The notes below the pieces were generated by a model, which saw only the letters and a list, made by a program, of their open reading frames with translations, did not search any database and was not told the DNA's origin. From assembly GCA_958430865.1 (NCBI GenBank), contig CAUDNR010004572.1:1-45894 (forward strand): a stretch of 45,894 nt of DNA. The letters run 5' to 3'. Positions 2,854 through 45,894 of the stretch are shown here, in pieces. The DNA comes from Entrophospora sp. SA101. Its lineage: Eukaryota > Glomeromycota > Glomeromycetes > Entrophosporales > Entrophosporaceae. The position numbers were made by a program, and so were the translations under genes. The stretch's first letter is position 1. Each line of letters begins with the position of its first letter.

Positions 2854-3366
2854 TGGTTGGTTTAGTACAGCAGATTGGTTCATAGTTATTATTATTGCCC
2901 ATAATTTTGCCATTTATAGTCACATAACCTTTTCATTGACGTCAGACGATGGGGATTGACTTTACAAATGAAACACTGTTTAAATATTTATTTATTTATC
3001 CGGTAAACGAATCGTAAATATTCAAATTAAATGTTCGCTTTTAAAATTGTAAATTGTTGAAAAAAGGTCGATAGTTTTGCGTATTGTAATAAGACACAAT
3101 TATCAACTCGCGTTTCTGCCAAAAGTAATAAAAAGTGTGTAGCTTTATATTTATAGACGGTTGAGATATCAGTTTTGTGTAATTGGAGTTTGTTTGATAA
3201 TAATATTGAATAAATATAAATACAAAACTCGGCACCTTTTCCCTTTATTATACGGATTTGAGGATCAATGTTCCGAATAATTAACTCTTGAGAAGTAGGA
3301 TGACAATACGGTCGAACCTTGTCATGGCAGATCTTGCCACAACGGACTATAATTAAATTCTTGTCA
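2854..3366 (+). repeat. 513-bp perfect direct repeat, copy 1
   Basis: Every base I compared from 2854 to 3366 matches 4350 to 4862 (offset 1496). The flanking bases differ immediately on the left. On the right the match drops from perfect to diverged in the middle of a MITE. The short open frames inside both copies are chance frames with no recognisable product. Confidence 0.9.
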
Positions 3367-3492
3367 CGAAATTATTGCCATATTAATATAAAACATATCA
3401 AAATCCGTTGTGGCGAGATTAGTAATCTTGCCACAACGGGATTTTAAATAAAATTTTCTTATGTATCCATCCGCTGTGGCAAGGTTTGACTG
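3309..3492 (+). mobile_element. TA-flanked MITE (pogo/mariner-like), copy 1
   Basis: A 184-bp element flanked by TA on both sides (3307-3308 and 3493-3494). The left terminus CGGTCGAACCTTG is the imperfect inverse of the right terminus CAAGGTTTGACTG. Inside, CCGTTGTGGCGAGATTA and TAATCTTGCCACAACGG (about 3403-3440) form an almost perfect hairpin. TA target duplication and CAGTCRAACC-type ends are characteristic of the pogo/Tigger/mariner superfamily. No coding capacity. Confidence 0.7.
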
Positions 3493-4349: not shown

Positions 4350-4862
4350 TGGTTGGTTTAGTACAGCAGATTGGTTCATAGTTATTATTATTGCCCATAA
4401 TTTTGCCATTTATAGTCACATAACCTTTTCATTGACGTCAGACGATGGGGATTGACTTTACAAATGAAACACTGTTTAAATATTTATTTATTTATCCGGT
4501 AAACGAATCGTAAATATTCAAATTAAATGTTCGCTTTTAAAATTGTAAATTGTTGAAAAAAGGTCGATAGTTTTGCGTATTGTAATAAGACACAATTATC
4601 AACTCGCGTTTCTGCCAAAAGTAATAAAAAGTGTGTAGCTTTATATTTATAGACGGTTGAGATATCAGTTTTGTGTAATTGGAGTTTGTTTGATAATAAT
4701 ATTGAATAAATATAAATACAAAACTCGGCACCTTTTCCCTTTATTATACGGATTTGAGGATCAATGTTCCGAATAATTAACTCTTGAGAAGTAGGATGAC
4801 AATACGGTCGAACCTTGTCATGGCAGATCTTGCCACAACGGACTATAATTAAATTCTTGTCA
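4350..4862 (+). repeat. 513-bp perfect direct repeat, copy 2
   Basis: Identical to 2854-3366. It lies 983 bp downstream in the same orientation, separated by the pogo-like debris. Total identity implies very recent duplication or conversion. Confidence 0.9.
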
Positions 4863-4994
4863 TAATAACAAATAATAATATTAATATTAATATAATAAAA
4901 ATCCGGCATGGAAACTAATCTTGCCACAATAACGACGGATTTTAAATAAAATTTCTTATGTGCCCCGTTCATCCTCTGCGACAAGGTTTGGCTA
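4805..4994 (+). mobile_element. TA-flanked MITE, copy 2
   Basis: A 190-bp relative of the element at 3309, with TA at 4803-4804 and 4995-4996. Its left 58 bases are identical to copy 1. The right part keeps recognisable pieces (TAATCTTGCCACAA, GATTTTAAATAAAAT) but has many substitutions and indels. Confidence 0.6.
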
Positions 4995-6357: not shown

Positions 6358-6454
6358 TTTATTAGGAAAATGCGAGGGCGAATTGCCTATTAAAAGTTTC
6401 TATTTATATATATATTTGATCAGTTATTTTGATGATCAATCTGCTGTTTCAGAA

Positions 6455-7369
6455 ATGAAGAAAATTGTAATTGTAAAAGAGTTTTATGAAATATCAGACA
6501 CCATTTCCCTAACTGCTTCCGAAAACAAAATTGTGCAACATGCTGAATTGCCCACGGTGAAGAACGAGCTTTCAGTGACTCTATATCTGAAACTTAAAAG
6601 TATTAGTTCTGATTGGCCCTGCATCTTTCGTAAAGGTTGGTTTTTGCAAGAATGAGTTCTGAACATCCCCAAGAATGCATTATTTAGTTGTCTAACACTG
6701 GTAAAAAAAATCGAATTTGACTTGGGTTAAACATTTGTTAAGATGTACAGTTTTCTGTCATCTCAACAAGCGTTGTAACTATTGTTTAATTTATTTTCTT
6801 TTACCAGTGTAAACTGGCGCTTTTCAAACTGAATAAAATATACACACCTTTAGGAATTTACGGTTCCACCCGTACTCCTGGTCTCTGGTTGACATCAAAT
6901 AATAAACTGCATCCTCGTTTCACAGGTAACTGGAATTGGAATGCTGGAATTGATGAGCTTGCTACTGAACTTTCATTGAATAAATGGTACCATATAAGTT
7001 ACACCCTTTCTGATTCTGAAAAGAGACTAGACATCTACATAGATGGTTTATGGGTCGGATTCTATGGCATCCAGGAAGTTCAAACACAAAAGGTTCTGTT
7101 CAATACTGAAGAACTGGTAATTGGATCTAATCTTACTGCTGAAATTAGGTACTAGTATTAAGCCAATCTATATTGTAGAAATCACAAAAATGTTAAATGT
7201 CCATTTTTATTAAATAGGAATTTTCGGTATTTTAACTGGCGTCTTACTCCTGAAGAAGTGGGGGAAAACATTTTGGTAGGATACTTTTAGACTTTTGCAT
7301 TTCTAGAATTTTTATTCATTTGCTCACAATAGTCATCCTTATTTTTAGCAACAAGGAGCCTTTAAATGA
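6455..7369 (+). CDS. LamG-like (concanavalin A-like fold) protein, copy A, four exons
   Basis: The gene is join(6455..6635,6854..7148,7218..7275,7349..7369), 184 residues. Every junction is GT-AG and phases agree: AAA G|GA gives KG, AG|G gives R, TTG|CAA gives LQ. Spliced, it reads from MKKIVIVKEFYEISDTISL through KGIYGSTRTPGLWL and LSLNKWYHISYTLSDSEKRL to DIYIDGLWVGFYGIQEV, EIRNFRYFNWRLTPEEV and QQGAFK. The order W-H-I-Y-T, D-I-Y-I-D-G and 'NFRYFNWRLTPEE' is the hallmark of LamG/jellyroll carbohydrate- or protein-binding modules. No signal peptide or catalytic site is visible; it is a single bare module. The open frame continues upstream to 6341, but 6455 matches the start of copy B. Confidence 0.75.
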
Positions 7370-7529
7370 TTTTATTAGGAGAATGTGAAGGCGAATTTGC
7401 TTATTAAAAGTTTCTATTTATATATTTGATCGACCACCCCGACGTTGTATTCAGTAACTTTTATTTTGCATTATATATATAAAAAAGGCCCTGTGAATTA
7501 TTTGATGATCAATCTGCTGTTTTCAGAAA

Positions 7530-8453
7530 ATGAAAAAAGTTGTAAAAGAGTTTTATGAAATATCAGACACCATTTCCATAACTGTTCCTGAAAACAAAAT
7601 CGTGCAACATGCTGAATTGCCCACAGTGAAGGATGAGCTTTCAGTGACTCTACATCTGAAACTTAAAAGCGTTAATTCTGATTGGGCCAAAATCTTTCAT
7701 AAAGGTTGGTTTTTGCAAGAATGAGTTCTGGACGTCCCAAGAATGCATTATTTAGTTGTCCAACATTAGTAAAAAAATCGAATTTGACTTAGGTTAAACA
7801 TTTGTTAAGATATACAATTTTCTATACACTTCAACAAGCGTTTAACTATTGTTTAATTTATTTTCTTTTACCAGTGTAAACTGACGCTTTTCAAACTGAA
7901 TAAAATATACACACCTTTAGGAACTGATCATTCCACCTGTACTCCTGGACTCTGGTTGACACCAAACAATAAACTGCATCCTCGTTTCACAAGTAACTGG
8001 GGTTGGACTATTGGAATTGATGAGATTGCTGCTACTGAGCTTTCGTTGAATAAATGGTACCATATAAGTTACACCCTTTCTGATTCTGAAAAGAGATTAG
8101 ACTTCTACATAGATGGTTTATGGGTCGGATTCTATGGCATCCAGGAAGTACAAATACAAAAGGTTCTATTCAATACTGAACCACTGCTAATTGGATCTAA
8201 TCTTACTGCTGAAATTAGGTACTAGTATTATGAAGTCCATCTATATCGTAGAATTCACAAAAATGTTAAGTGTCCATTTTTATTAAATAGGAATTTTCGG
8301 TATTTTAACTGGCGTCTTACTGCTGAAGAAGTGTGGGAAAACATTTTGGTAGGATACTTTTAGACTTTTGCATTTCTAGAATTTTTATTCAATTGCTCAC
8401 AATAATCACCCTTATTTTTTAAAAATTTTTAGCAACAAGGAGTCTTCAAATGA
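7530..8453 (+). CDS. LamG-like protein, copy B, tandem paralogue
   Basis: The gene is join(7530..7704,7921..8218,8291..8348,8433..8453), 183 residues. It has the same four exons, splice phases and ending (QQGVFK) as copy A, and starts MKKVVKEFYEISDTISI. Differences are mostly substitutions (NWGWTIGIDEIAATEL here, NWNWNAGIDELATEL in copy A) plus a one-codon indel. Both copies keep open frames and all splice sites despite clear intron divergence, which suggests both were under selection after the duplication. Expression as separate genes is inferred from the stop codon ending each unit; a fused two-module transcript is not supported. Confidence 0.7.
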
Positions 8454-8460
8454 TTTTATT

Positions 8461-9994
8461 AGAAAATATGAAAATTTTTAAGAATATTGCATGGTATTAT
8501 ATTAATATATAGTTTAATTAAATTACTAGCAATTTGTCTATAAATTATATTTATTAATAAAATAACCAAATACATCATTGCTATATGATTAATTGAGGTT
8601 TGGGTAGTTAGTGAAGGTAATTTTAGCAATAAAGCACCAGAATATGAAACCCAAAGATAGAACAACTCTTTTAATTATTAACAATCATATATAATTCTTG
8701 TAAATTCAGTTATTAGTTTCATCATCAGGAGATTAAAATGAATAAAAATGATGTTATCTTAACAAATTTATAAGTTTATCAATATGTTATTTTATCTCTA
8801 CAATAAGATTTATATTAAGCAATTATAAAAGGATATTTTTATTTTTATTTATAAATATATGTAAATTTATTTACATGTAAACGAAACTATTATTCTGTAA
8901 TTCTAAATTAAAGATTTTTCTAGAATCCATTAAACCTTCTGCAGGTTCTTTTGTGCTATTATTATTCCATCATCATCAATATCTTTATAATATATTTTTT
9001 TAGTTAAATTATATATGTAATCTGTGTAGAGAATAATGACTTCAAACTTTTGCATTCTCATAACTACATTCTCATCCTTCATTTCAATGCCATTTAGGAT
9101 CTAAAAACAAACTCACAACCGTCATTATATATACATTAAATTCTTTGAAGGGTTACCATTTGGTCATACTTTAGATACAATTTCTGAGACATAAGTATCA
9201 TTATTATCCATTGGTTTAGGCGAATTCTGTCTACACCATAATAGTCAACTTCGTCACATTCTTCAATTGCATCGCATTTATTTTCGGCAAGTGAAGAAAA
9301 GGAAACATTTCCTCATCAAACCTTCTTGAATCTTGTTTGTTCTTTAGTCTAACATTTTAATTTTTTTGGTTCGAAAAAATTTAAGCTCCTGAATTTGACT
9401 ATTTTTTATTATTTGTTGATTAGTAATAAATAATAGAAGTATTATACTATTAGAATACTAGTATCATTTAATTCTAAGTTAATTCTTGTGTGGAGAGATT
9501 AATTTGACTTTCGATTCCCGAAGGAAAATTTCAGACGGGGGGACTAAATTTTCTACTCGCATTACACTTTTTCTCTAGGTTTATCGATCTTTTGGTTGAT
9601 ATTATAAAGCTAATTTTTACAGGTTGACAACATAGTAGAAAGCCAAAGATTAGTCTAGTCGACAACCCATAAAAAATTTTGGTTGTAAAGGTAAGCATTT
9701 TTGTTAAGTTTGTTTTCTATGCATTAATAAAGTATTATTATAAACCTGATGATTCAATTAAACAGTTCTGCTCATACCTTCTTCTGCACTGTATTACTTT
9801 GTTGTTGATTTTCAAATAAACGGTTTTTCATATCGGTCTGAGAGTTGACAATGAACCCTTGGATTACATCAATCGAGTTTACAACTTGTTCAGTTTCCTT
9901 TTTCCATAATTAAATTCTGGAAAAGTACATCTTCACAAATTACCAATTAGTTCATTCCTTTAAAAAAAAAAACATAATATATAATATAAAACTA
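8461..9994. other. Gene-free region, possible old retroelement traces
   Basis: AT-rich. On the minus strand around 9360-9080 a broken frame contains RFDEEMFPFLHLPK, weakly like the end of a copia integrase. Stops and frame breaks are frequent and no other motif was found. Nothing here is annotated as a gene. Confidence 0.3.
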
Positions 9995-16510: not shown

Positions 16511-17418
16511 TAATCAATCATGTATTGATATGTTTTCTATGCAGATATCGCAGAACTAAAAGTATCGGTGGAATAGATATACTAACCGAATTTGGAAATT
16601 ATCAGTAAAAATTTATGTGTATGACGCAGTCAAATTTTACATCTGCATACTAAAAACGCACACTTTACAGAAGAATTGCCAGAAAACAGCGTCATTACTC
16701 TGAAAAATTTCCATTAATTCATGTGACGCTCTTTCACCTTGTTGCATTACAAAAATCAAGTTTATTAATACAAAAACAATTGTTTTAAGAGAATGCAATA
16801 TAGGCACTAAAAATAAATAATGACAATAATGACAATAATCTGTTGTGCAACTAAAAGATTAATGCAAAACGCTAATAATAATAATAATATAACGAGAAAA
16901 TTTTTTTTAAAAAAAATCGGAAAATTTTTAATTTTAATCTAATTGGTGATTTTTAATTATAAAAATTTTTTTTAATAAACTTATTAGGAAAGAAGAATTA
17001 ACAATTATTGAAGAGAAAAATTTTTTTTGGATTAAAACAAAGAATTTTTTTTTTTTGGGGAGATTTCTTGTTTAGGCAAGTATAAAATGTATTTTTCATG
17101 TGTTACTTATTTGTTATTATATCATTATATCATTATGATTTTTTGAATTTTTGATATTTATTACTATTACTAATACCTACAACACCAAAGTGAAAACTTC
17201 GCGCCACAATACAATTTCGGTGGTACAAAGTAATAAATTTGTTAAAATGTATTGTGATATCAATGTCACTCTTCAATAACTTTCATAGTATAAACTAAGT
17301 AATGATTCAAGAAAGAATACACCAGATAAGCGTTTAAATTTCTTTTCTACTTTCTTAAATTATACATATGATTATATTTATATGAAAATATAAATATGAA
17401 TTAATTTGCAAAGATCCA

Positions 17419-17577
17419 TAATGGAACCCAAGAGTGAAGTACTTTAAAAAAAAGAACAAGACAAAAGATTGCTCCTTATGTTTAAATCAATTGACACTCA
17501 TTTACTTGAAGATTATCCAAGGAAAGAGGGAATTACCTATGAAATTGCCAAGAAGAAAGAAAAATGATAAATACTAG
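17419..17577 (+). repeat. Dispersed 'MEPK' repeat-family fragment, copy 1
   Basis: The broken frame reads MEPKSEVL, stop, KKEQDKRL, then FKSIDTHLLEDYPRKEGITY. It aligns with 40328-40507 (MEPKNYSIIRSILKKEQ, then YLRKESITYEI). The shared order shows one ancestral coding repeat of unknown function; this copy has a stop and a frameshift. Confidence 0.55.
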
Positions 17578-20500
17578 GAAAAGAAAGCAGAATGAAAGTG
17601 AACATTATCTAATAAATCTTTGGAAGAAGTAAAATAATACGTGATGGAATCTTTGTTTTTTTTCAATATAAACAACAATAACTATAGCACTAAAACATTA
17701 AATACTAAAGTTGTATCTACTAATCATAATCAAATCAACTTGTGTGTATTTGAGGTATTCTGCTGCTTGCTTTGGGCAAAATCTTCATCTTTGAGATTAC
17801 TGACAGTAGTGGTAACATGGTAACATGGTAAACATGAAGAGGACCTGGACTTCTCAACACATTTATAACATAAATCCTTCTAGGAAGAAGATTTCCTTTG
17901 TTGCTTTAGGACTAGAATATTGAAATCAGGAAATTTGTTGTGAATAACTTCTCAATGGTAAGGAATAAATTTGTCATCAGCAATTTCCTGCCGGTGCTGT
18001 TATTCTATTTAGTTTGTGGAAACTGCCCGAAAATGTTTTTGATTTTAAAAGTGTTAAATGTAGAGGCTTGTTTGTACATGGTGGAGGGATTTTATAAAGA
18101 TTAAAACAAAACAGTCTTACTCATCTTTAAATGATTTCTAGCATCATTGCAACAATTTTTCTCTTTGCCCTAGTTCTCTAATAATACATACTTGTGATAT
18201 TTAAAATTCTGACGTCCTGTATTTATTTAGACAAAATAAAATTAAACATTAACTGTGTATGAAATAATTCATGTAAATTAATTATTATCTCAAAAATATT
18301 TCTTAGTAATTAACCTCAGAGTATCCAATGCTCTTCTGCTTTCGGCCATTTTCTACTCTATGTTGTTCATTTACTTAATACTTTTTTAGATTCTAGAAAA
18401 TTTTCAAAGATTTTTTTAAAAAAAACCCCTCTTTTGTACCCCTTTTGTATGCGTAAAAAATAATTGATAAATGAGCCAAAATTCAAGTTGTTTTCTTTGA
18501 AAATTGTCTTGGTTTTTACAACCTTTTTGAAGAAAAAGTTTAGAGGGGACAGAAAGATTTGTTACAATGGCTTAAGAATAGCTTAAAGGTGCCATTAAAA
18601 ATTTTTGGAACTCCAATTCCTACAAAAAATAAAGACTTTTTGGTCTTTAACGATTATATTTGTTTTTACTTTTGTCATTCCTTAAGGAAATGAATGCGGA
18701 AACAACAACATTTTTTTGAGAGTTTAAAATCGTTTAGTACCTTGAGATAATGCAAGAAGGATATGTGGAAAAATAGATGGAGAAATGTTTGATATGAGTA
18801 TGAGAATTGTTAAGGGCATGGTTATCAATTATGAGAGGGGATTTTTTTAAAAAGAAACGAAAATTTGAAGTAGAAGAGAAAGAATTTATCGAGAAGTATT
18901 ATGACATAAAGAATGAAATCGCTAAACGAAGTTCATGGCTCAATAGAAAATTCAGGATGTGGTAGGTTTCGAGTTTTATTAAAATTGCATCCAGGTTCTC
19001 TTCCATAATAAAGCAATTTTCGGGAACCTATCCCATGTTCAGGTTGCTAGGGACTCGAATAGATGTAGAAAAGATGGTCCTATTGACACCAAACTTAATA
19101 TACCATCTTGCCATAATTCTGAAATGAAACTTTATGATTTGTTCCTTTAAAAGTTTCTTTTATTCTTTCTTTTAAAAAGGATAATTAATGATCTTTTAAA
19201 ATTTAAAAAACAAAATAAATATATGTCAAATAACAACACCTCATCAACTGTCTTCACTGTTTCATTGAATAATTGCATCTTGAGGTGATGATGATAAGAA
19301 AAGAAAGTTAAGGAAATAGTCAAATGTATGATGACCTTTTTATCCCTCTCTAAGGAATTGTCCAAGCTTTAGGAGAAGATTTATTAAGGGAAATATCCTT
19401 CCATGGTAAATTTAAAACCTATGGTCAATTTCCTCGTGTAAATATGAATCTTCCCCAAATAAGAATGTCTTTTCTGATAAGTTTTTTATTTTACTGACTA
19501 TTCTTGTGATAGGAAAGCTCGAGGGCAAATTGTTTGTAATGGTAAATCCATTATAGTTACTATTATATTTCCCTTTCAAAAATTTCTGTTTTTATCAAGT
19601 AATCTCTCACTTTCATTCTGCTTCTTTTCCTAGTGTTTATTCTTCTTGTTGACTTTGTCCAGAAATATCTTCTTGATAAACTTATAAATAATTTTCTCTT
19701 GTCTTCCAAGCATCTGGGTATCATTTAAAAATACTTCTAATAGTGCTATTTTCATATAGGGAAACCTTATATATATCGCTCAGAAACCAGAAAAATATCT
19801 CTATTTACGAAAAACAACATCCGTCACCTTCATTGTTTTATCAACTAAAAGAAAAGGCTGAAAATTGAAACTGTCTGCGATTAGGATTAATTATGAGAAA
19901 TTTGCAGTACAAGAAGAATTTAGAAGCTATTGATTACTATTAGAAAGTTTCCGAGAAAAGCAGCAGTGGATTATGTGTTGATATTAGGACAAAGAATGCT
20001 AGCAATGAAGAAATAAAGAGACTTTTGTCCTTTGGGAAAATAAATGGCCACCACAAGAATTTATCTCAGAATTGCATATGCATCTTGTCATTTAGAAAAG
20101 AAAACAGTGTCTACAATGAGTAATAATAATAAAAGAAACCAGATATCGCAATTACGTTATTCGATAGTATAATTGTGGCGTTGAGCAACTTCGTACTACT
20201 AAAGTTGTATTGTGGCTGGAGTTCATGTAGCCACATTTATATTATCTCATGAGAGAGCCAAATTAGTGGATCTCTGCCAATCTAGTGGTAACGGTATTTA
20301 GTATAAATGTCAAAAATGACATGTTAAATGATGACGGCGAGGGCTGAGTGCGTAACCATAATGAGGTACCTGACTAAACTAATATAAAATTATTAAACAT
20401 TTGTTACTAAATTAGGGCTCACTCCTTATGCCAGCAGTCCTGATGACGGCAACGATGTTGATAATGATGAATATGATCTTCTGAGTAACAATAATCTATT

Positions 20501-23477
20501 TTTGAGGTAACAATATTTAACTGTTAAGGTACACATTGTTTTTTTGCATTGAAAGAGTTTCCATAATTAGAGGAAAATAGAGATTGTTAATAACTGGATA
20601 TTAATTAATAGATGGATAGATAGAGATATATATATTTATATAAGAAATTTGTAGGAAAGGGATAATTAATTAGTTTAAAGTTTAAAGGAGATGGGCGTAG
20701 GTTTAGACTTGGGAATGGTCCTGACTGATAGCTTGAACCAAAAAAAAATTATAGCCTTAAGAATATTATCAATTAAGGATTTTACCAATGATTATAATTT
20801 TATTTTTAAATTTTTCAGAAGCACAAGAATTTTTATTGATAAAATTCATGTGAATGCGTCCATTTTTAGAATTCTCGTGGCGTTATTTATTTGTTTGTTT
20901 ATTATTTATTGTTAATTATTTGTGGAGTCAATTATTTAATTATTTATCTATCACTATTGTTAATATTTATTAATCAACAGATAGACGTACACAGAGAGAA
21001 ATATAAAAGATACGATTGTTAAAAGAGATTTGATAGAGAGAATTATTGAATGACGTGAGAAAACAACAAAAGATTGTTTTTCTTACTGTCACTTGATTTT
21101 TTTTTTGTTTGTTTGTTTGGACCCTGTCCAAAAAAAAAAATATAATAAAACATGCATTGTGGTTTGGTTAAACATTCGTTTTTGGAAAAAGACAAATATG
21201 GTTAATATGAATGTCGATGGTACCGTGTATATATTTATTTGTTATCAACTGGTTGAAACTTGTTTTTTTTTTTTTTTTTTTTGAATATTTCTAAAATTTT
21301 ATTTATTCAAAAATTCATAGCCAGTTAATTATTTTAAACTTTTTGTTTCTATTATTATTGTTTATGTTTTTGTTAGTTTTGTGTATAAAGACGCTAGGCG
21401 AATTAATTTTGGCTGCTTAAACTAGTTTTGCCCAGGATCTTTAATTGAGCAGATTTTTTGAAAAAAATTATAACTATAAACTATTAAAAAAATTTTTCCA
21501 GTTTTGGTTTTTTGGAAAAAAAAATTTTTTTATGTAATACATATACCGTATTATACATAATAGGAATATTTTTCACAACGTTTTTTTTAACAATGCTTTT
21601 TTATACAATTGGACTATTGGAATTATTGGATAATGAATTAAAAATTCTGCAAACGCAATAAAGCCACGCGATGAAAAATAAATTTTTCTCCGTTACAACA
21701 TACCACCGTGATAACGCACACACACACACATACAAGTTGAGCATTTGTCATTACAAACTGAAAAAAAGCCAGTTTTTTACAAAACCTTTGTTCCGAATTA
21801 AGTTAATTTATTTTAAAGTTAATGATTATGTTGTGTAAATTTACACAAAGACCACGCATACATACATGCATGTTATTGTCGTTATCATATGAATGGGTTG
21901 AATGAATTTTCAATGACGGGAATGAACAATTGATAATAAAATAACAATAGAATAAAAAAATTTTAAAAACTTGTATCAACTCGTAAAAATAATAAATAAT
22001 AATAAAAAACCATTAACAATTATTGTTATGCACACGTTTTTTTTTTTTATTAATTTAATCTCCGATGTTTAAATTTTTTATGGGATTTTAGGATTCCAAA
22101 AACATACAGTAATTTACAGTTAATTACCGGCTATTATATATATTGTTATTATATATGAGAAAGTTTGACACATATTAGACAATTTTGGCATTTTATTACA
22201 TCATATACAATAATGTTGGAAATTGTATGTATTATTTTATGATGAATATATACATTGTGTGTATATATTCATTCATATATGCATCAAATAATGTCAAATA
22301 TATGTCAAAATTATTTTGAATGAAATTTTTATGTAGTAACTCGGGTGAGAAATAAATTAAAAAAGAAATTGTTGTAATATATAAATGAGAGATATTGGAA
22401 AAGGGAAGGAAATAGCATAGATTCGTGTTACCAGGCTGTCAAAAGATACTGTGATAATAACAATAAATAATAATATTGTTCTCCACAATTTTTTTAATTT
22501 TTTAATTTTTCTAGAATAGTAATGAAATGATTTATTTTGATTTGATTCATTGATTGAATTAATTGATTGAATTCGATTGGATTAGTTTTTCATGTTTGAA
22601 TTAGGGGTTTAAATTTATTTGGATGCAAAAAATTCCTCAATTTCATCAACATCATGAAAATATATTATTTATATTTAAAAGTTATTATTATAATAATAAT
22701 AGTTTGTAATGTAAAAAACTGGTTTTTTTTAAAATAAAAATTTAATTGATTATGATCTCAACATAAAAACTGTCAAAAATTTAAAGTTTTTAAACTTTAA
22801 AATAATTATTTTATGTTAATGTTAATTATTTTATGTTAATTGATTATTTTATTTTACACCTACTTGATTTACCTAATATAATTGATAAGGAAAAACTTGT
22901 GAAAGGTGTTAATAAATTGTTTTTATAATATAACAATTGTGGTGACACATATAGTCCTGATCCTAATAGGTATGTATAATCCTTCCTGATATAAAAATCA
23001 TATCCCACTTATTATTTATTATTATTTATTATTTTCTCTTTTATACATATATATATATATATATATAATTATCTCCTTCACCTATTTTCCGCCATCCACA
23101 CCATCTTCTAATTATCAACATCTTTCATTTATCAACATTAATTATCAACAACATTTTTCAATTATCAATTATCAACAATTTTTCAATTTATATCACCTTT
23201 TATTTTGTGTCACAAAGAAATAACATTGTTTGATCATATGTTGTTATTTGATGTAGCACACTCATTAACTTTATTTTGTTTATATGAATGAGGCTTTTTA
23301 AAGCTAAATAAACATAACAATAATTTGGCTAAAAAAAAAAAAAATAACGGATGATATTAGGCAAATAAACAAATATTAAATAAATATTGATAATTGCGAA
23401 TAATCATTAGGTAAATAAATAATAACAAAAAAAAAATCAATGCTTATTATTATGAATTTTTCCGTCATTGACAGTTT
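17578..23477. other. Long gene-free region
   Basis: Nearly 6 kb without a supportable gene. It contains homopolymer tracts (T17 near 21263), a short CA repeat (21717-21731) and, at 23040-23060, a TA microsatellite followed by a C/T-rich stretch. Short frames at 17641, 20691 and 21093 are low-complexity and have no family signature. Traces of former coding DNA between 18.5 and 20.1 kb could not be assigned. Confidence 0.4.
23112..23182 (+). repeat. TTATCAACA motif cluster
   Basis: AATTATCAACAT, TTTATCAACAT, AATTATCAACAA and AATTATCAATTATCAACAA lie within 71 bases, directly after a TA microsatellite and a pyrimidine-rich stretch. The spacing is irregular, so it is a cluster rather than a simple tandem array. 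It could be a factor-binding cluster or a former 5' UTR. Confidence 0.35.
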
Positions 23478-25697: not shown

Positions 25698-26803
25698 TGT
25701 TTTTTTTTTGTTGGTAAAATAATGTTCAACAATAATTTATAATTTTTAAGTTAAATTCATATTAAAATAAAATAATAATTGACAATTGGTTTTTTTTTTA
25801 TATATTCTTATAATTCTATTATATTCATTCTTATAGTACATACAATTAAATACTCATTATATAATATATAAATTTTATGGAATATAACCGTTAATATATG
25901 TATCATTATAAAAAAAAAATTAGACGTTATGCAACTGTCATTTTGTTGTTGCAAAAGTTTATATTTATAATATATTATTTAATAATTAAAAATATATAAA
26001 ATCGAATGTATTTTCCCAACTTTCAAAAATCGTTTCTTCTCATGATTTTTTAATTTGTTTCCAACGAACGATAAAAAATATTTCTTAAATATCATATTTT
26101 TTTCTAATTAAATAATTAAAAAGAAAAATAATAAATATTTTAATTTTTAAAATATTAAAAAAATTTTTTTTAATTATTTTTTTTTCTTCTCTCATCTCAA
26201 TTCAAAATTTCTATTCTCGTAGAACAACTCTCGCCCTTTTTAACAAATCTTCTTTACATACGAACCACTACCTTATATTTTTGACATTCACATTAACTTT
26301 CATCAATCAATACATATATATAGTATTACCTATATTCTTTAGTTTATCTTTTTAAAAAAAAATTTTTTTATTTTTATTTTTTTCAAGCAAAAAAGATACT
26401 TTACAATATACAATATATATATATATATATATATATATCAAGAAAGAAAATTAATTTTTCATTTTGTCACGAAATTCTAACGAATAATATATATATATAT
26501 ATAAAATAATTAAAAAGTTTTTTTTTCACGAATTATCAATCAATTAATAAAAATTTTTACAAGAATTAAAGAAGAATAAATAAAATCATGGCAGCTTTAT
26601 CAAATATTTTGCATCCACCAATGAAGAAGGCAGATCATTTTCGTTTTTATAATAACAATAGTAATTATAATAATTTTTATCATCAAAACGATGTTAATTA
26701 TTATCAAAAACAACAACAGGATTCCTATCAACATTATCATCAACAACCGCAAATTCACCAACAACATCAACCATTTCCTTTTACTTTTAATCAATCTCAT
26801 CAG
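25698..26803 (+). repeat. 1.1-kb duplicated segment, copy 1 (CreA-like promoter and 5' CDS)
   Basis: Matches 44793-45894 base for base as far as I compared, from the TG plus T10 run through codon 72 of the zinc-finger gene. The only difference seen is a microsatellite: (AT)13 at 26413-26438 here against (AT)11 at 45508-45529. Copy 1 is continuous with the rest of the gene, so it is the parental locus. Confidence 0.92.
26185..26587 (+). promoter_or_regulatory. Probable core promoter / 5' UTR of the CreA-like gene
   Basis: A pyrimidine-rich stretch (TTCTTCTCTCATCTC, CTCTCGCCC) at 26185-26240 precedes about 340 bases of AT-rich leader with (AT)13 and (AT)8 microsatellites. Such C/T-rich tracts often mark transcription starts in fungi. 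The ATG follows AATAAAATC with no upstream in-frame ATG. The start site itself cannot be fixed from sequence alone. Confidence 0.35.
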
Positions 26804-39462: not shown

Positions 39463-40303
39463 ACTATTTCATAGGTTTGTCATATGATTGCTTCCAACTT
39501 TTTAAATTCGAACCATTTGTTAACAAAACAACTGTTGGTGAAGTGATTGTTGACAAAATGAATCAATCAACATTTATTTTTACATTATCAATTTCACGAT
39601 TTTGATTGGCCCAATCAGCAATTGCATGGGTTAAAATTTTGTTACCTGTTATTGTTCCTTCACTCAAACAAATAATTGTCCACAATACAACATTATTTGG
39701 AATGTAATTGTTTTTTATGTGTCAATACTCAATAAACAAACATTCTGATCTTGGATAATTCTTGTTGTCTTTAATAGAAATAATCAATAAAGAATTAATA
39801 TAAACCTTGAAAAATTGAAAAACGAAAATTGGGTTATTTAAAGGACAACTTCATTGTCATCAAACTCTAGTGATGATTTTTTTTGATTCAACAATAAAAG
39901 AATTTCAGTATTCTATTTTTAAAACTTACAAATTCTGCACTAAAACCTGTCCTATGTGCTACATAAAAGTCATTCTATGTTGTTTCAAAGTCAGATACTC
40001 ATTGCATTTTTGTTTTATTAATAATATTATTGTGTATTACTATTATGCATCATTAACTTCTAATCAAAATTCGAAAAAAAATCAAGTTAACACAACTCAT
40101 GTGTATGTAAAAGTTGCTCTACTATTAATCAGAATTCCGTATGATATATGGGGCATGCTGTAACAAAACCAAACAAAGTGAACATTGGTATTACCAAAAA
40201 TTTCAGGGATCAAAATTTAGTTATTATCATAATTAGTTTTATAATGTCCCATCTGTCAAGTGATATATAGAATTACCTCTATATATATATAAAAATAGTT
40301 AAT
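39463..40303. other. Gene-free stretch
   Basis: AT-rich. The frame at 39870-40163 is Cys/Tyr/Ile-rich with no family features and is not called. Confidence 0.35.
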
Positions 40304-40327
40304 ATGAAGTTAATTTACGTTAGGTCT

Positions 40328-40507
40328 ACCATGGAACCTAAGAATTATAGTATTATCAGAAGTATTTTGAAAAAGGAACAAGGTGAAAAAATTGCACCTT
40401 ATATCTTCAAAATAAATGAAACTTACACACTTGAAACTTATCTAAGAAAAGAAAGTATTACTTATGAAATTTACCAAGAAGAAAGGAAAATAATAAGCAA
40501 TAAATGA
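40328..40507 (+). repeat. Dispersed 'MEPK' repeat-family fragment, copy 2
   Basis: Reads MEPKNYSIIRSILKKEQGEK, then YLRKESITYEIYQEERK, open for 60 codons to TGA 40505. Homologous to the broken copy at 17419 in the same orientation. Function unknown. This is the last sequence of fungal type before the bacterial-code block. Confidence 0.55.
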
Positions 40508-40576
40508 ACCTTAACATCAGCTCATGATGAACCAAGAAAGAAAAGAAGACTGGCAGAATAAACAATCAAATCATTA

Positions 40577-43500
40577 TTAATCATCATATTCATTATCCTC
40601 TTCTTCTAGTTCATCTGGGGAGTTTCATCATTGAGCAAGGAGTTTTCTTTTTCAAATCGCTCAAATAGTTCCGGCGAATAATAAGAGTAAGCCCAGTCCA
40701 CTTAGTCAAGCGGCAGGGTTATTAGTTCTTCAGAATCCTTCCTTAGAAGTAGGTTGGCTTTCAGTAGCTTTTTGTTTAGCATAACTATGGTTAATTCCGG
40801 CAAGTTTTTCGAAATAGTATTTTTTAATTCCGGCTTCAGTTGGACTAGCTCCATCCCCGTAGAGGTTCCAATCTAAGCTTTTAGCTTGGTCCGCTGGATT
40901 CCGATCAGCTTTCATTTCAGTTTCAATTTCTCCTTTCTTAGCACTGTCATGTTTAATGTGATAAGTTGCGGAGAAAGTAATGACATGTTGAGGAGGCAAA
41001 GTGAAGAAATATTCTTCTTTTTGATAATCACTAGCAGTATCAGCGGGAAATTCAGGAACTTTTTTACCTTTTAAATAATCCTTGAGTTCTGTGAAAAAAG
41101 TACTTTTATCTTCTAAGTTATTGAGAATGTTGCCAATCTCTTTAAGTTTATTAACATCAGTTTTGAAGAAGTTTTTATCACCATAATTTTTTCATTCCTT
41201 AACTAAAGAATTAGGGATATCCGCATCAGTTTTGAAAACTAACCGCAAGTTTTCAGCTCTTAATCTTGATTCAGTTAAGTAATTATTAATCGTCAATAGC
41301 TCTGCTTCTTCTTCCGAACTAAGACCTTGGTTTTGCCTAGCTTTCTCCAAAGCAATTTTAATCACCTCAAAGTAAGTTCTAATTCCTTTTTCTTCTAAGA
41401 CTCTTCCTTCGTTCTTTTCCAAATTATCTAATCTTTCTTGGAAATTGCTACCAAGTGCTTTCCAAGTTCCGTAAGTACTGAGAGTAGCATTGCGAACAGT
41501 CTCTAATTGTTCTACGCGAGTGAGATATCCTTTTTCAGTAGCCGTAAGGGGAGTTTCTAATTTGCCCTCATTTTCTAAATCAGTTAAGAAGTAAATCAAA
41601 GTTCTAATGGCAATTGTTTCTTGATAAGTGATAATAACATTTACATCACTTGGATTAGTTAGTTTATCTCCTAAATGTTTAAGTTGAGTTCGTAAATGAT
41701 CAATCCTTCCAGTTTCGAGGGCTTTGATTTGATTTTGGATTTGGATTAGTTTTTGTTCTTTGTCAGCTTTTTGAAGACTAATTTTAGTTAACTCACTTCT
41801 TTTTTTTCCTAATTCCGCATGAATGCTTTCTAAACCTACTCGTTTATCAGCAGTTATCATGTTTCATTTGTCTCACAAATTGATTGTTTCACCAGAAACT
41901 AAGTCTTCTAATTTACCTTTATCAGGAAGTAATCACTTCGAAACTTCTTGGTGGTGAACATACTCAAGTTTTCTAGTTTCTAACTCTTTAAGAGTTAAGC
42001 CTTTTGCATCAGTTCTAAACTTTGCATAGCCTCTTTTCATGGTTTGAAGTGCTACTTCTACAGCAATTTTCCCTCACTCTTTTTGAAATTTATCAATTTC
42101 CTTCTTGTCAAATATAGGATTTCCGTGGGCATCTCTTGAATTTTTGATTAAATCGCGAACATGTTTTTGATAATTATTCAAATGCAACATGATAGCCACA
42201 TGTTTCGAACCTGCTGATTTCACAAGTTTATCCTCGTAAACACTAATTTTACAAATTTTTTCTAAATCGACTCCCTTTTCATCTAGCACTTCACAATATG
42301 CACTAAAATTAATAGCATCATCTTTGTTGTAAACTTGTCAAAAGAATTCAGGGATTTGGCCATTAGCCCAAGTTAAGAGTTTTTCTTCAGCAAGAAAGGG
42401 AGCTTCAAGAATACTTAACTTTCCCCCATCCGTAACATAACTCTTTGTAATAATACTGGCATCTGCTCCTCGCCAATACACTTTAAAAGGAGTATCAATA
42501 CTCTTATCCGTATCATTAAACTGCAAACAACTCTTTTCACCTTTTTTTAAGAAAGGACTATTTTTTCATTCACTAGGTTTATTTTTAGGAAAGAGAGCAT
42601 GCATGATACAAAAGACATCACTTATACGAAATATTTCTTTTTTTACTTCTTCTACTTTTTCACTTTTAATTAAATTCATCACATGTGAAAAACCTCAACT
42701 AACCGCATCATCAGACACAAAGTGACCCATTCTATTCTGCAATCCACCATTTGAAAAAGTAATATCTTTTCGTTCTACAAACCGATTAAAAGCATCTTTA
42801 AACTCTTTCTTTTGGTTGGCAGTTAAGTGAGTGCAAGTAGAAGAACCAATATAAGCAAAAAGTTTATCTTTATCTATATTCTTAAGAATTGTTCAAATTT
42901 GACCTGGTAAATCACTTTCTAAATAAAGCGGATGAGTAAAAGGTTTAGAATTTCCATTATATCCCATTTGAATAACTGATGCATAACGGTCAACTGTTTC
43001 TGGTATATCAGCTCTATATTGCAAGTCACTATTTATTTTACCAATTTCAAGCATACAATCAAGAAACTTACGACCAGTTCCACCAGGTGCTAAATCATCT
43101 TTTAACTTTTGAACAATAGTAGAAATCTTTTTCTCTAACTCAGTTTGTTCTTGAAGTATTTGTTCGTTATATTTTTTCTCTAACTCTTCAACTTCCTTTT
43201 CTGTTTTTTCTTCTTCTTCTGATACTTTTGCAAAAGTGATTAATGCTTCCTTTAATTTTAAATCCAAAGTTTTATTGTTTTTTCTAAATAAAACTCTTTG
43301 GTATTCCTGCACCATTTTATCAACTCTTCCTTCCTCATTTTCATCTTTTTCATTAACTAATTGGTAAGCAATGGAGTTATTTCTCCTTTCTGCCATTAAG
43401 GAAACTAATAACTTATTACCATCATTACTAAGAACATCCGCACTTCGTTCAACTTTTAAATTAGTTTCCGCTTTTTTACAATCATTTAATAATTCAGCCG

Positions 43501-43654
43501 TATCCTGGAGAAGAGAAACATCCAAAGTACCATTAGGAGTTAAAAGATCACTATTAAAGATTTCTTTTTCTTGATCAGTAAGTTTACCACCATGATAGTC
43601 AGGATATTCCTTTGCTTTTTCGATTGTATCGATATCATTTTTATTGAATGTCAT
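40577..43654 (-). CDS. Large tail-anchored coiled-coil protein of endobacterial type (code 4)
   Basis: 1025 residues in one frame to TAA at 40577-40579. Under the standard code it breaks into six or more pieces. With TGA = Trp it is continuous, with TGA at residues 254, 320, 363, 439, 527, 574, 594, 597, 821, 975, 983, 998, 1001, 1009 and 1010, and about four TGG. The start MTFNKNDIDT follows AGGAAGT at 6 bases; an earlier in-frame ATG at 43693 lacks this. No N-terminal signal is visible. Coiled coils are likely at about 145-187 and 608-662. Residues about 984-1001 (LSGLGLLLLFAGTIWAIW) form a membrane helix, followed by KRK and a very acidic end (EEEDNEYDD). This suggests a large soluble body held to the membrane by its C-terminus. 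I recognise no enzyme or binding domain; function unknown. In a fungal nucleus it could not be translated in full. Confidence 0.85.
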
Positions 43655-43764
43655 GATTTTACTTCCTATATTATATTTTAATATTAATATCATTAAAAGA
43701 TTAAATATAAAGAATTTAATAAAAACTAATAAAGTAATAAAATTTGCAGTTGACTGAAATATTT
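43655..43764 (-). other. Intergenic spacer between the two code-4 ORFs
   Basis: 110 AT-rich bases between the TAA of the upstream ORF and the ATG of the large ORF. No strong hairpin terminator is visible, so co-transcription of the two genes is possible. Confidence 0.45.
43661..43667 (-). promoter_or_regulatory. Shine-Dalgarno deciding the start of the 1025-residue ORF
   Basis: AGGAAGT on the minus strand, 6 bases before ATG 43654. A TATAAT hexamer at 43675-43670 could be a -10 box, but it would place the transcript start almost on the Shine-Dalgarno, so the promoter call is tentative while the ribosome site is good. Confidence 0.6.
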
Positions 43765-44792
43765 TTATTCATTATCAGTATAGATTGGTTTGGGACAAGT
43801 GATATCTTTGTATTCATCTTTCACAAATGGGCGAATATTATGATAAAGATACTCTTGTCTTTTGTAGTCCAAAGGAGGTGGTGTTAACACTAAAATAGAT
43901 AAAGCTCTAATTTCTTCAAAAATATCTGATTTCTTGGTTTTCAATAAATTGAATTCAGTAAAAGGTCCATTAGCAACTTCTTGAACTTTGACCACACCAA
44001 GGTTAGATGCTTCAAAAAGAAAATGTTGATATTTTTGTATACTTGGTAATTTCTTGAAATAAATTCCCAAAATTGCTTTAATATCTAAATATTGAAAACC
44101 TTTTCCACCTTCATAACATTGAGCTCTATTCAATCCTGTTGGACTAGACTTTTTTACCACCTCAACCACATGATCCAAACAATCTACTCTGGTTCTTCTA
44201 TAGAGTTTTTTAATCATGCCAAAATTACCATCACATTTGAATTTGGTATGTCCTGGAACCATGAAATTTAATTCAATGCTTTTGTAATAACCACAAATTA
44301 CCAAATATAAATAAAATCAAATTGTTACATTATTTTTATTTTGTCCCCCAGCATTATCACAAGTAATCTTTAAATGCTTTTCACCTTTATTCAATTTCTT
44401 AATTCCATCAAAGATCAAACTAAGAGTTCCATTAGGACCTTTTCCTATAATTTCATCTTCATTAAGAACATAATTAATTTGCTCCCTTACTGCTTCATCT
44501 TGAATACCAAATAAATGAACTTTACATGGACTAAGGTAATAGATTTTACTTACTTGTTGATCTAAATGTGGTACATGAACATTTTGGACTCAATCATAAC
44601 TATAATGAGCAGTAGCATCAATGCTGCAATATTGGGTTTTACCCTTGGAATAATTTTGGTTAACTAATTTTTTTTGTTCTTCTGCTAATTTAGTATTTTT
44701 ATTATAATAATTTCTTTCTAATTTAGCCTTGGACAAATGTTCTTTAAATCTTTTGAGTAAATCTTTGGCTTCTTCCTCTTGGTGAGAATTGT
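43765..44792 (-). CDS. DUF7869 / eukaryotic transposase-like protein in code 4, 5'-truncated
   Basis: About 341 residues remain, open from the junction to TAA at 43765-43767. TGA must be read as Trp at 44592-44590 (HYSYD-W-VQNV) and 44319-44317 (NNVT-I-W-FYLYL). Motifs in order: CSIDATAHYSYDWVQNVHVP, KITCDNAGGQNKNN, ELNFMVPGHTKFKCDGNFG, MIKKLYRRT, then a tail with YLYHNIRPFV and CPKP. The CDN.GGQNKNN plus VPGHTKF.CD..FG order is the core of the DUF7869 family, found in eukaryotic transposon-related proteins and abundant in glomeromycotine fungi. The Asp residues of these motifs fit an RNase H-like catalytic fold, but activity is unproven. The N-terminus is cut where the fungal duplicate begins. 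Confidence 0.75.
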
Positions 44793-45894
44793 TGTTTTTT
44801 TTTTGTTGGTAAAATAATGTTCAACAATAATTTATAATTTTTAAGTTAAATTCATATTAAAATAAAATAATAATTGACAATTGGTTTTTTTTTTATATAT
44901 TCTTATAATTCTATTATATTCATTCTTATAGTACATACAATTAAATACTCATTATATAATATATAAATTTTATGGAATATAACCGTTAATATATGTATCA
45001 TTATAAAAAAAAAATTAGACGTTATGCAACTGTCATTTTGTTGTTGCAAAAGTTTATATTTATAATATATTATTTAATAATTAAAAATATATAAAATCGA
45101 ATGTATTTTCCCAACTTTCAAAAATCGTTTCTTCTCATGATTTTTTAATTTGTTTCCAACGAACGATAAAAAATATTTCTTAAATATCATATTTTTTTCT
45201 AATTAAATAATTAAAAAGAAAAATAATAAATATTTTAATTTTTAAAATATTAAAAAAATTTTTTTTAATTATTTTTTTTTCTTCTCTCATCTCAATTCAA
45301 AATTTCTATTCTCGTAGAACAACTCTCGCCCTTTTTAACAAATCTTCTTTACATACGAACCACTACCTTATATTTTTGACATTCACATTAACTTTCATCA
45401 ATCAATACATATATATAGTATTACCTATATTCTTTAGTTTATCTTTTTAAAAAAAAATTTTTTTATTTTTATTTTTTTCAAGCAAAAAAGATACTTTACA
45501 ATATACAATATATATATATATATATATATCAAGAAAGAAAATTAATTTTTCATTTTGTCACGAAATTCTAACGAATAATATATATATATATATAAAATAA
45601 TTAAAAAGTTTTTTTTTCACGAATTATCAATCAATTAATAAAAATTTTTACAAGAATTAAAGAAGAATAAATAAAATCATGGCAGCTTTATCAAATATTT
45701 TGCATCCACCAATGAAGAAGGCAGATCATTTTCGTTTTTATAATAACAATAGTAATTATAATAATTTTTATCATCAAAACGATGTTAATTATTATCAAAA
45801 ACAACAACAGGATTCCTATCAACATTATCATCAACAACCGCAAATTCACCAACAACATCAACCATTTCCTTTTACTTTTAATCAATCTCATCAG
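44793..45894 (+). repeat. 1.1-kb duplicated segment, copy 2 (CreA-like promoter and 5' CDS)
   Basis: Begins at TG plus T10 exactly where similarity to 25698 begins and runs to the window end. It follows bacterial-code DNA directly. It lacks 4 bases relative to copy 1 in the AT microsatellite and otherwise matches. Confidence 0.92.
45679..45894 (+). CDS. CreA/Mig1-like gene, second copy, 5' part only (window end)
   Basis: Starts [20 protein letters not shown] and continues 72 codons, to residue 72 of the gene at 26588, without a difference. The zinc fingers (residues 186-240) would lie beyond the window. It is cut by the window end, so it may be a complete second gene, a fragment, or the same locus assembled twice. 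Confidence 0.75.
   Translation, partial: MAALSNILHPPMKKADHFRFYNNNSNYNNFYHQNDVNYYQKQQQDSYQHYHQQPQIHQQHQPFPFTFNQSHQ

Follow-up and report, generated by a model that had tools for sequence, protein, structure and literature searches.

A code-shifted DNA transposon family in the genome assembly of the fungus Entrophospora sp. SA101, with signs of an endobacterial source

Mollicutes, including the mycoplasma-related endobacteria of arbuscular mycorrhizal fungi, translate with table 4, and the fungal nucleus does not. How, then, does a contig of fungal DNA come to hold an open frame of 1025 codons that exists only if TGA is read as tryptophan? The window analysed here is the whole of one contig (C2065; 45,894 nucleotides) from an Entrophospora sp. 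SA101 assembly of 101,348,593 bases in 2123 contigs. SA101 was sequenced from sorted nuclei, with prior phi29 amplification and a PCR screen against bacteria (PMC6987183); a separate survey gives endobacterial contigs as present in 19 of 389 public fungal assemblies (PMC11423566).

A reading made from the letters of this DNA (hereafter, the sequence-only reading) took the frame for one endobacterial gene, either transferred very recently to the nucleus or joined to fungal DNA during assembly. Its observation is real and rare, but the phenomenon is wider: a code-shifted transposon family, not one transferred gene. Here we show that the element belongs to a dispersed DNA transposon family whose members have a DUF7869 transposase and end in a common terminus; some copies lie amid host genes. 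We consider it fairly likely that this is a Mollicutes endobacterial transposon that colonised the fungal nucleus, with the 1025-codon frame as the cargo of a multi-gene DNA transposon. A high-copy element in a nucleus unable to read its genes would suggest either repeated DNA traffic from endobacterium to nucleus or a novel reading of TGA, and either opens to experiment the question of how DNA from an endosymbiont enters a host genome and multiplies there.

The cargo frame and its setting in the window

The frame lies on the minus strand (43654..40577), where translation of the window with table 4 gives 1025 residues followed by TAA. It contains 15 TGA and 4 TGG codons and no internal TAA or TAG; the plus strand of 40577..43654 is stop-rich throughout. 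Everything that had been described of it (fifteen in-frame TGA codons, the lack of TAA and TAG, the terminal TAA and the Shine-Dalgarno-like start) was reproduced, on the minus strand, the earlier description having given no strand. From stop to stop, the code-4 open stretch in the window runs to 1064 codons, against a maximum of 259 codons in 40 random first-order Markov sequences of window length. When six other copies are compared, 13 of the 15 TGA codons align to tryptophan in one or more of them, and the remaining 2 align to Tyr or Arg. The protein is predicted at low confidence (model mean pLDDT 53) to be helical and coiled-coil, with a C-terminal membrane helix and an acidic tail. The features of the window are as follows.

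40146..44792, minus strand: transposon copy in which the 5' part of the transposase is absent, delimited by the joint start and stop of similarity to other copies
43765..44792, minus strand: 3' part (~339 of ~590 codons) of the DUF7869 transposase, from Pfam and alignments, with 2 TGA at conserved tryptophans
43662..43667, minus strand: Shine-Dalgarno-like AGGAAG, 7 nt upstream of the cargo ATG
40577..43654, minus strand: cargo gene, 1025 codons with TGA as tryptophan
40304..40561, plus strand: small gene, 85 aa, tail EPRKKRRLAE, with one CGA-to-TGA change (R/W) relative to other copies
40150..40186, no strand assigned: element terminus with the motif CAAAGTGAACAT, which also occurs inverted near the opposite end of other copies
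44793..45894, no strand assigned: near-perfect copy of 25698-26803 (zinc-finger locus) abutting the broken transposase, a probable assembly join
17353..17616, no strand assigned: decayed fragment of the terminal region of a related element, 72-78% identical to terminal regions

Similarity to other copies begins jointly at ~40140-40148 and stops at 44792, and the end at 40146 is common to other copies; the edges of the block are placed at 40146 and 44792, as against the ranges of 40.4-40.7 and 44.7-44.9 kb given previously. The surrounding DNA is fungal, as had been proposed, with TLDc and C2H2 zinc-finger genes on the rest of the contig. A 4-mer score gave no clean signal at the block edges and did not set the transposase part apart from host DNA. 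In the decayed fragment, the terminus motif recurs with one mismatch at 17594. Two direct duplications were also observed in the window, pairing 6424-7389 with 7498-8472 at 90% identity and 2854-3464 with 4350-4961 at 95%.

The last 1102 bases of the window match 25698-26803 at 1102 of 1106 positions, with one difference in the length of an AT repeat, and this copy of the zinc-finger locus starts exactly at the end of the foreign block. Breakpoints within the transposase gene differ between the window and other copies, and two contigs (C185 and C1739) have the same fungal flanks around cargo genes separated by a dS of 0.21, which together make assembly within the element repeats unreliable; the right-hand join at 44792/44793 is therefore probably an assembly fault. 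Mixed assembly, one of the two origins offered by the sequence-only reading, is not supported for the block as a whole and is likely at this join only. The differing cargo of C185 and C1739 (L027, L028, L031 and L032) may mean that copies have recombined or that the assembly is misjoined here. Contig C1424 has a perfect 2-kb inverted repeat (20001-21993 and 46709-48701), of a kind producible by amplification or assembly.

A dispersed family of DUF7869 transposons

In the assembly, the cargo has 18 matches on 13 contigs. Full-length cargo genes with TGA as the sole stop occupy eight places, the window included, at identities of 99 to 32%; the copies on C1424, C1061 and C313 are broken. Besides the window's copy, six sampled copies (C313, C1798, C1838, C185, C1739 and C1424) have a DUF7869 gene or fragment upstream of the cargo on the same strand. 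The cargo on C1010 has no adjoining DUF7869 gene among those listed, C1289 starts in N and contig C1398 stops at the cargo leader. When copies that carry cargo are aligned, their similarity ceases together at the right terminus, and a 29-base stretch of that terminus occurs at 1140 sites with up to two mismatches (reversed control, 0). The one candidate for a terminal inverted repeat is an inverted 12-base motif near both ends. Host genes accompany some copies, including protein kinase ORFs at the site shared by C185 and C1739 and the fungal genes of the window.

Transposase matches in the assembly exceed 100, and six further copies were drawn from the eight best of these for anatomy. An unbroken 590-codon frame is present in three of the six (C1574, C145 and C636), with shorter frames in C1539 and C1667 and a frame change in C1353. 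Downstream of the transposase, five of the six carry smaller TGA-rich cargo genes; C1667 instead has ORFs with TGG only. For one smaller cargo, scoring of 118 of 214 candidates gave at least 117 matches, many of which contain several TGA. The smaller cargo genes (L037, L039, L041 and L042) are TGA-rich; their products, of ~290-360 aa and of 200-230 aa, are constant at the start and variable in the middle, the shorter class being cysteine-rich at its start.

Many dispersed copies of differing ages with a common terminus leave hardly any probability to a single very recent transfer, or to endobacterial and fungal DNA merged during assembly, even though endobacterial DNA is present in the assembly and the join at 44793 looks artificial. 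As an account of the locus, this proposal of the sequence-only reading is not supported, in view of the 18 cargo matches on 13 contigs, the high-copy transposase and terminus and the copies that adjoin host genes.

Against DUF7869 (PF25273; cut-off, 26 bits), the window's transposase fragment scores 64.9 bits and a full copy 62.6. On sequence grounds the element is a member of the DUF7869 transposases, with the code, the cargo and the small gene as what is new. DUF7869 proteins of fungi (for example Rhizophagus irregularis P0122), Desulfobacterota and other bacteria are homologous over the entire transposase and alike in conserved motifs. Those of Candidatus Moeniiplasma glomeromycotorum (P0050 and P0098) are shorter and ~55% identical to the element's transposase. 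The predicted model of the transposase shows an RNase H-like core whose nearest structure is Mos1, which is in keeping with transposition but is not proof of it; Foldseek returned no match at E 0.001, and the comparison with the Mariner transposase Mos1 and retroviral integrases is one of predicted fold only, at a sequence identity of 11%. The transposase had no relatives in viral contigs. DUF7869 proteins (L001-L010) were also found in genomes or MAGs of Desulfobacterota, Thiomargarita, Legionellales, Nitrospirota and Verrucomicrobiota.

Tryptophan codons and selection

Transposase and cargo are in code 4 and lie in a row on one strand. Among 39 transposase matches of at least 300 residues (119 of 1090 candidates scored), none is without TGA, 21 have TGA as the sole stop and 18 also contain TAA or TAG; some shorter matches are stop-free, one of which (C2060) spans the place of two tryptophans. 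Two of the five transposase tryptophans are TGA wherever data exist (9/9 and 10/10 copies) and the other three vary, being TGA in 2/9, 2/9 and 4/12; an apparent TGA at 586 was left uncounted because it looks like an alignment shift, the window codon there being GAT. Between the window cargo and the C1398 copy, which are 32-33% identical, 12 tryptophans align, eight of them TGA in both and four codon-switched. The transposase, the cargo and the small gene are under purifying selection, with dN/dS of 0.125 for the transposase (median of 100 pairs with enough overlap), 0.30-0.53 for the cargo (21 pairs) and 0.10 for the first 61 codons of the small gene (median of 42 pairs). Switching between TGA and TGG at conserved tryptophans under constraint requires that TGA be read as tryptophan.

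The same switching, together with the strong constraint, speaks against the idea of a dead fungal transposon, in which the TGA codons are true stops derived from a master copy and the copies are mobilised in trans. Intact standard-code DUF7869 genes do exist in the genome, as such a history would have it, but the TGA codons fall at conserved tryptophans and we assign this explanation a very slight probability. This second and more distant DUF7869 set, 36-43% identical to a Moeniiplasma protein, yielded 20 long matches (122 of 790 candidates scored): 12 stop-free in the standard code, 6 with one TAA and 2 with one TGA. Unlike the element's transposase, the intact members of this set and the bacterial DUF7869 ORFs use the standard code.

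Fungal mitochondria also read TGA as tryptophan. A mitochondrial home, with these organelles as the place where the element resides or its genes are translated, would account for the identical code change; it is very unlikely in our view, given that the relatives are endobacterial and other bacterial and that AGGAAG stands upstream of the cargo. A search of the assembly for cox1 gave no match.

A probable endobacterial source and signs of nuclear residence

In a transposase tree of 39 rows, from which the second DUF7869 set was left out, the element clade (17 rows) is sister to a clade of seven rows, both Moeniiplasma proteins among them, with support of 99/97, to be read with the caveats that long branches are flagged, P0098 fills 40% of the columns and one short row was left out. 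Outside both clades lie that of the Rhizophagus row and then other bacteria. Mollicutes-type DNA is present in the assembly, as indicated by bacterial rpoB genes with in-frame TGA on three contigs (C2074, C555 and C1799) and, on ten more, by EF-Tu-like and ABC matches in which TGA is the sole stop. The three rpoB genes all differ, and this DNA is probably of three kinds. Among the matches listed, none of the 13 bacterial-marker contigs bears a copy of the element.

A protein search for the cargo (7992 candidates scored) found six homologues, five from Entrophospora sp. SA101 and one from Entrophospora candida. The sequence-only reading had looked to Candidatus Moeniiplasma proteomes; all six come from Entrophospora assemblies and none from a named Moeniiplasma proteome. 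Their gene models omit the TGA-bearing stretches, as if the predictor had called introns. In practice, copies of the element are annotated as spliced fungal genes, and they may be taken for contamination. Searches of GTDB species contigs and of viral contigs confirmed no cargo relatives, and none were found in phages (DNA or protein search), in plasmids (protein search) or, with E values of up to 0.1 admitted, in PHROGs or NCBIfam; matches to Pfam were at chance level, as were, at most, those to PDB sequences. The titles and abstracts searched held no description of such an element, and 'DUF7869' was absent from the texts searched.

The earlier interpretation stands in part: TGA as tryptophan, the fungal rest of the contig, TGA-bearing rpoB on three contigs and the position of the transposase beside the Moeniiplasma-holding clade speak for it. 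Mollicutes-related endobacteria and arbuscular mycorrhizal fungi are also the partners of a gene exchange described as running from fungus to endobacterium, and the bacterial donors identified for R. irregularis were not known endobacteria of the Mollicutes-related kind (PMC5982333).

The CpG observed/expected ratio (o/e) is 0.03-0.14 in the transposase (nine copies, all CpG-poor), 0.08 in the small gene (pooled over ten copies), 0.10-0.38 in the smaller cargo genes and 0.19-0.61 in the 1025-class cargo, where the window copy is highest and has a step at the cargo start. Within 40577-44792 of the window, the ratio is near zero across the transposase and steps up to ~0.6-0.7 in the cargo; it is 0.81 in the window's host DNA and 0.12 in a kinase ORF adjoining copies. 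In three near-identical cargo copies, CpG transitions make up 6/26, 1/42 and 1/33 of the private changes, which in the latter two lie mostly in patches suggestive of recombination or of switching during assembly. One explanation is that the endobacteria are CpG-poor and this cargo is a newcomer; the other is that the transposase evolved in the nucleus, and its strong CpG depletion would also fit a long nuclear evolution with TGA as tryptophan.

This bears on an alternative that is unlikely, though less so than the others considered: a nuclear-resident transposon whose TGA codons the fungus itself reads as tryptophan, through a suppressor or imported tRNA or by readthrough. The high nuclear copy number speaks for it, as do the bacterial-marker contigs without a copy among the matches listed, and a CpG-poor transposase that keeps its constraint has a counterpart in the neighbouring host kinase ORF. 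Yet several sampled host ORFs adjoining elements use TGG only, the stop codon of the window's zinc-finger gene is TGA, the second DUF7869 set is in the standard code and ARAGORN found no tRNA within the element in 14 loci. Against the endobacterial-transposon reading that we favour stand the Moeniiplasma relatives, just ~55% identical, the CpG depletion of the transposase, as expected of long residence in a CpG-depleting genome, the 13 marker contigs that bear no copy among the matches listed, and a clear Shine-Dalgarno at the 1025-aa cargo alone, other cargo starts having a weak one or none.

Under an endobacterial source, transposase and cargo would be written for Mollicutes-type translation, with TGA as tryptophan, and their proteins made in an element-carrying Mollicutes endobacterium. 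The cargo would act in the bacterium or at its surface, as a coiled-coil protein that evolves fast and is anchored in a membrane. The DNA of the element, perhaps with the transposase and the small protein, would enter the fungal nucleus and insert, and nuclear copies, not fully expressible by standard translation, would decay there.

More speculatively, and with considerable doubt, we suggest a selfish element of two compartments: its genes use TGA as tryptophan, yet it is high-copy, CpG-depleted and constrained in a nucleus where TGA is a stop. It could be kept alive by endobacterial translation or by a fungal TGA-reading device, and its movement between bacterium and nucleus could be aided by a small nuclear-targeted protein readable in both codes. 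The small gene, on the strand opposite the cargo, encodes 82-91 aa, in which a constant core is followed by dissimilar, mostly basic tails (that of C313 is shifted). Among the tails of the best 120 of 995 homologues, 35 are PRKKRK-like and 59 KRKH..NKKQK-like, and K[KR]x[KR] occurs in 114 of 120 (shuffle mean 52, maximum 66). It is the one nuclear-signal pattern tested that is in excess: a bipartite pattern is present in 19 of 120 tails, where shuffles give 20.0, and a stretch of six residues with four basic ones is present in 91 of 120 (shuffle mean 80.9, maximum 93). The resemblance of the basic tail to a nuclear localisation signal is suggestive, the related sequences not being independent. 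Most copies of the small gene have no tryptophan and are therefore readable in both codes; of 150 scored matches (1119 candidates), 130 are stop-free and 11 contain TGA. The CGA-to-TGA change of the window's small gene is found in two other copies.
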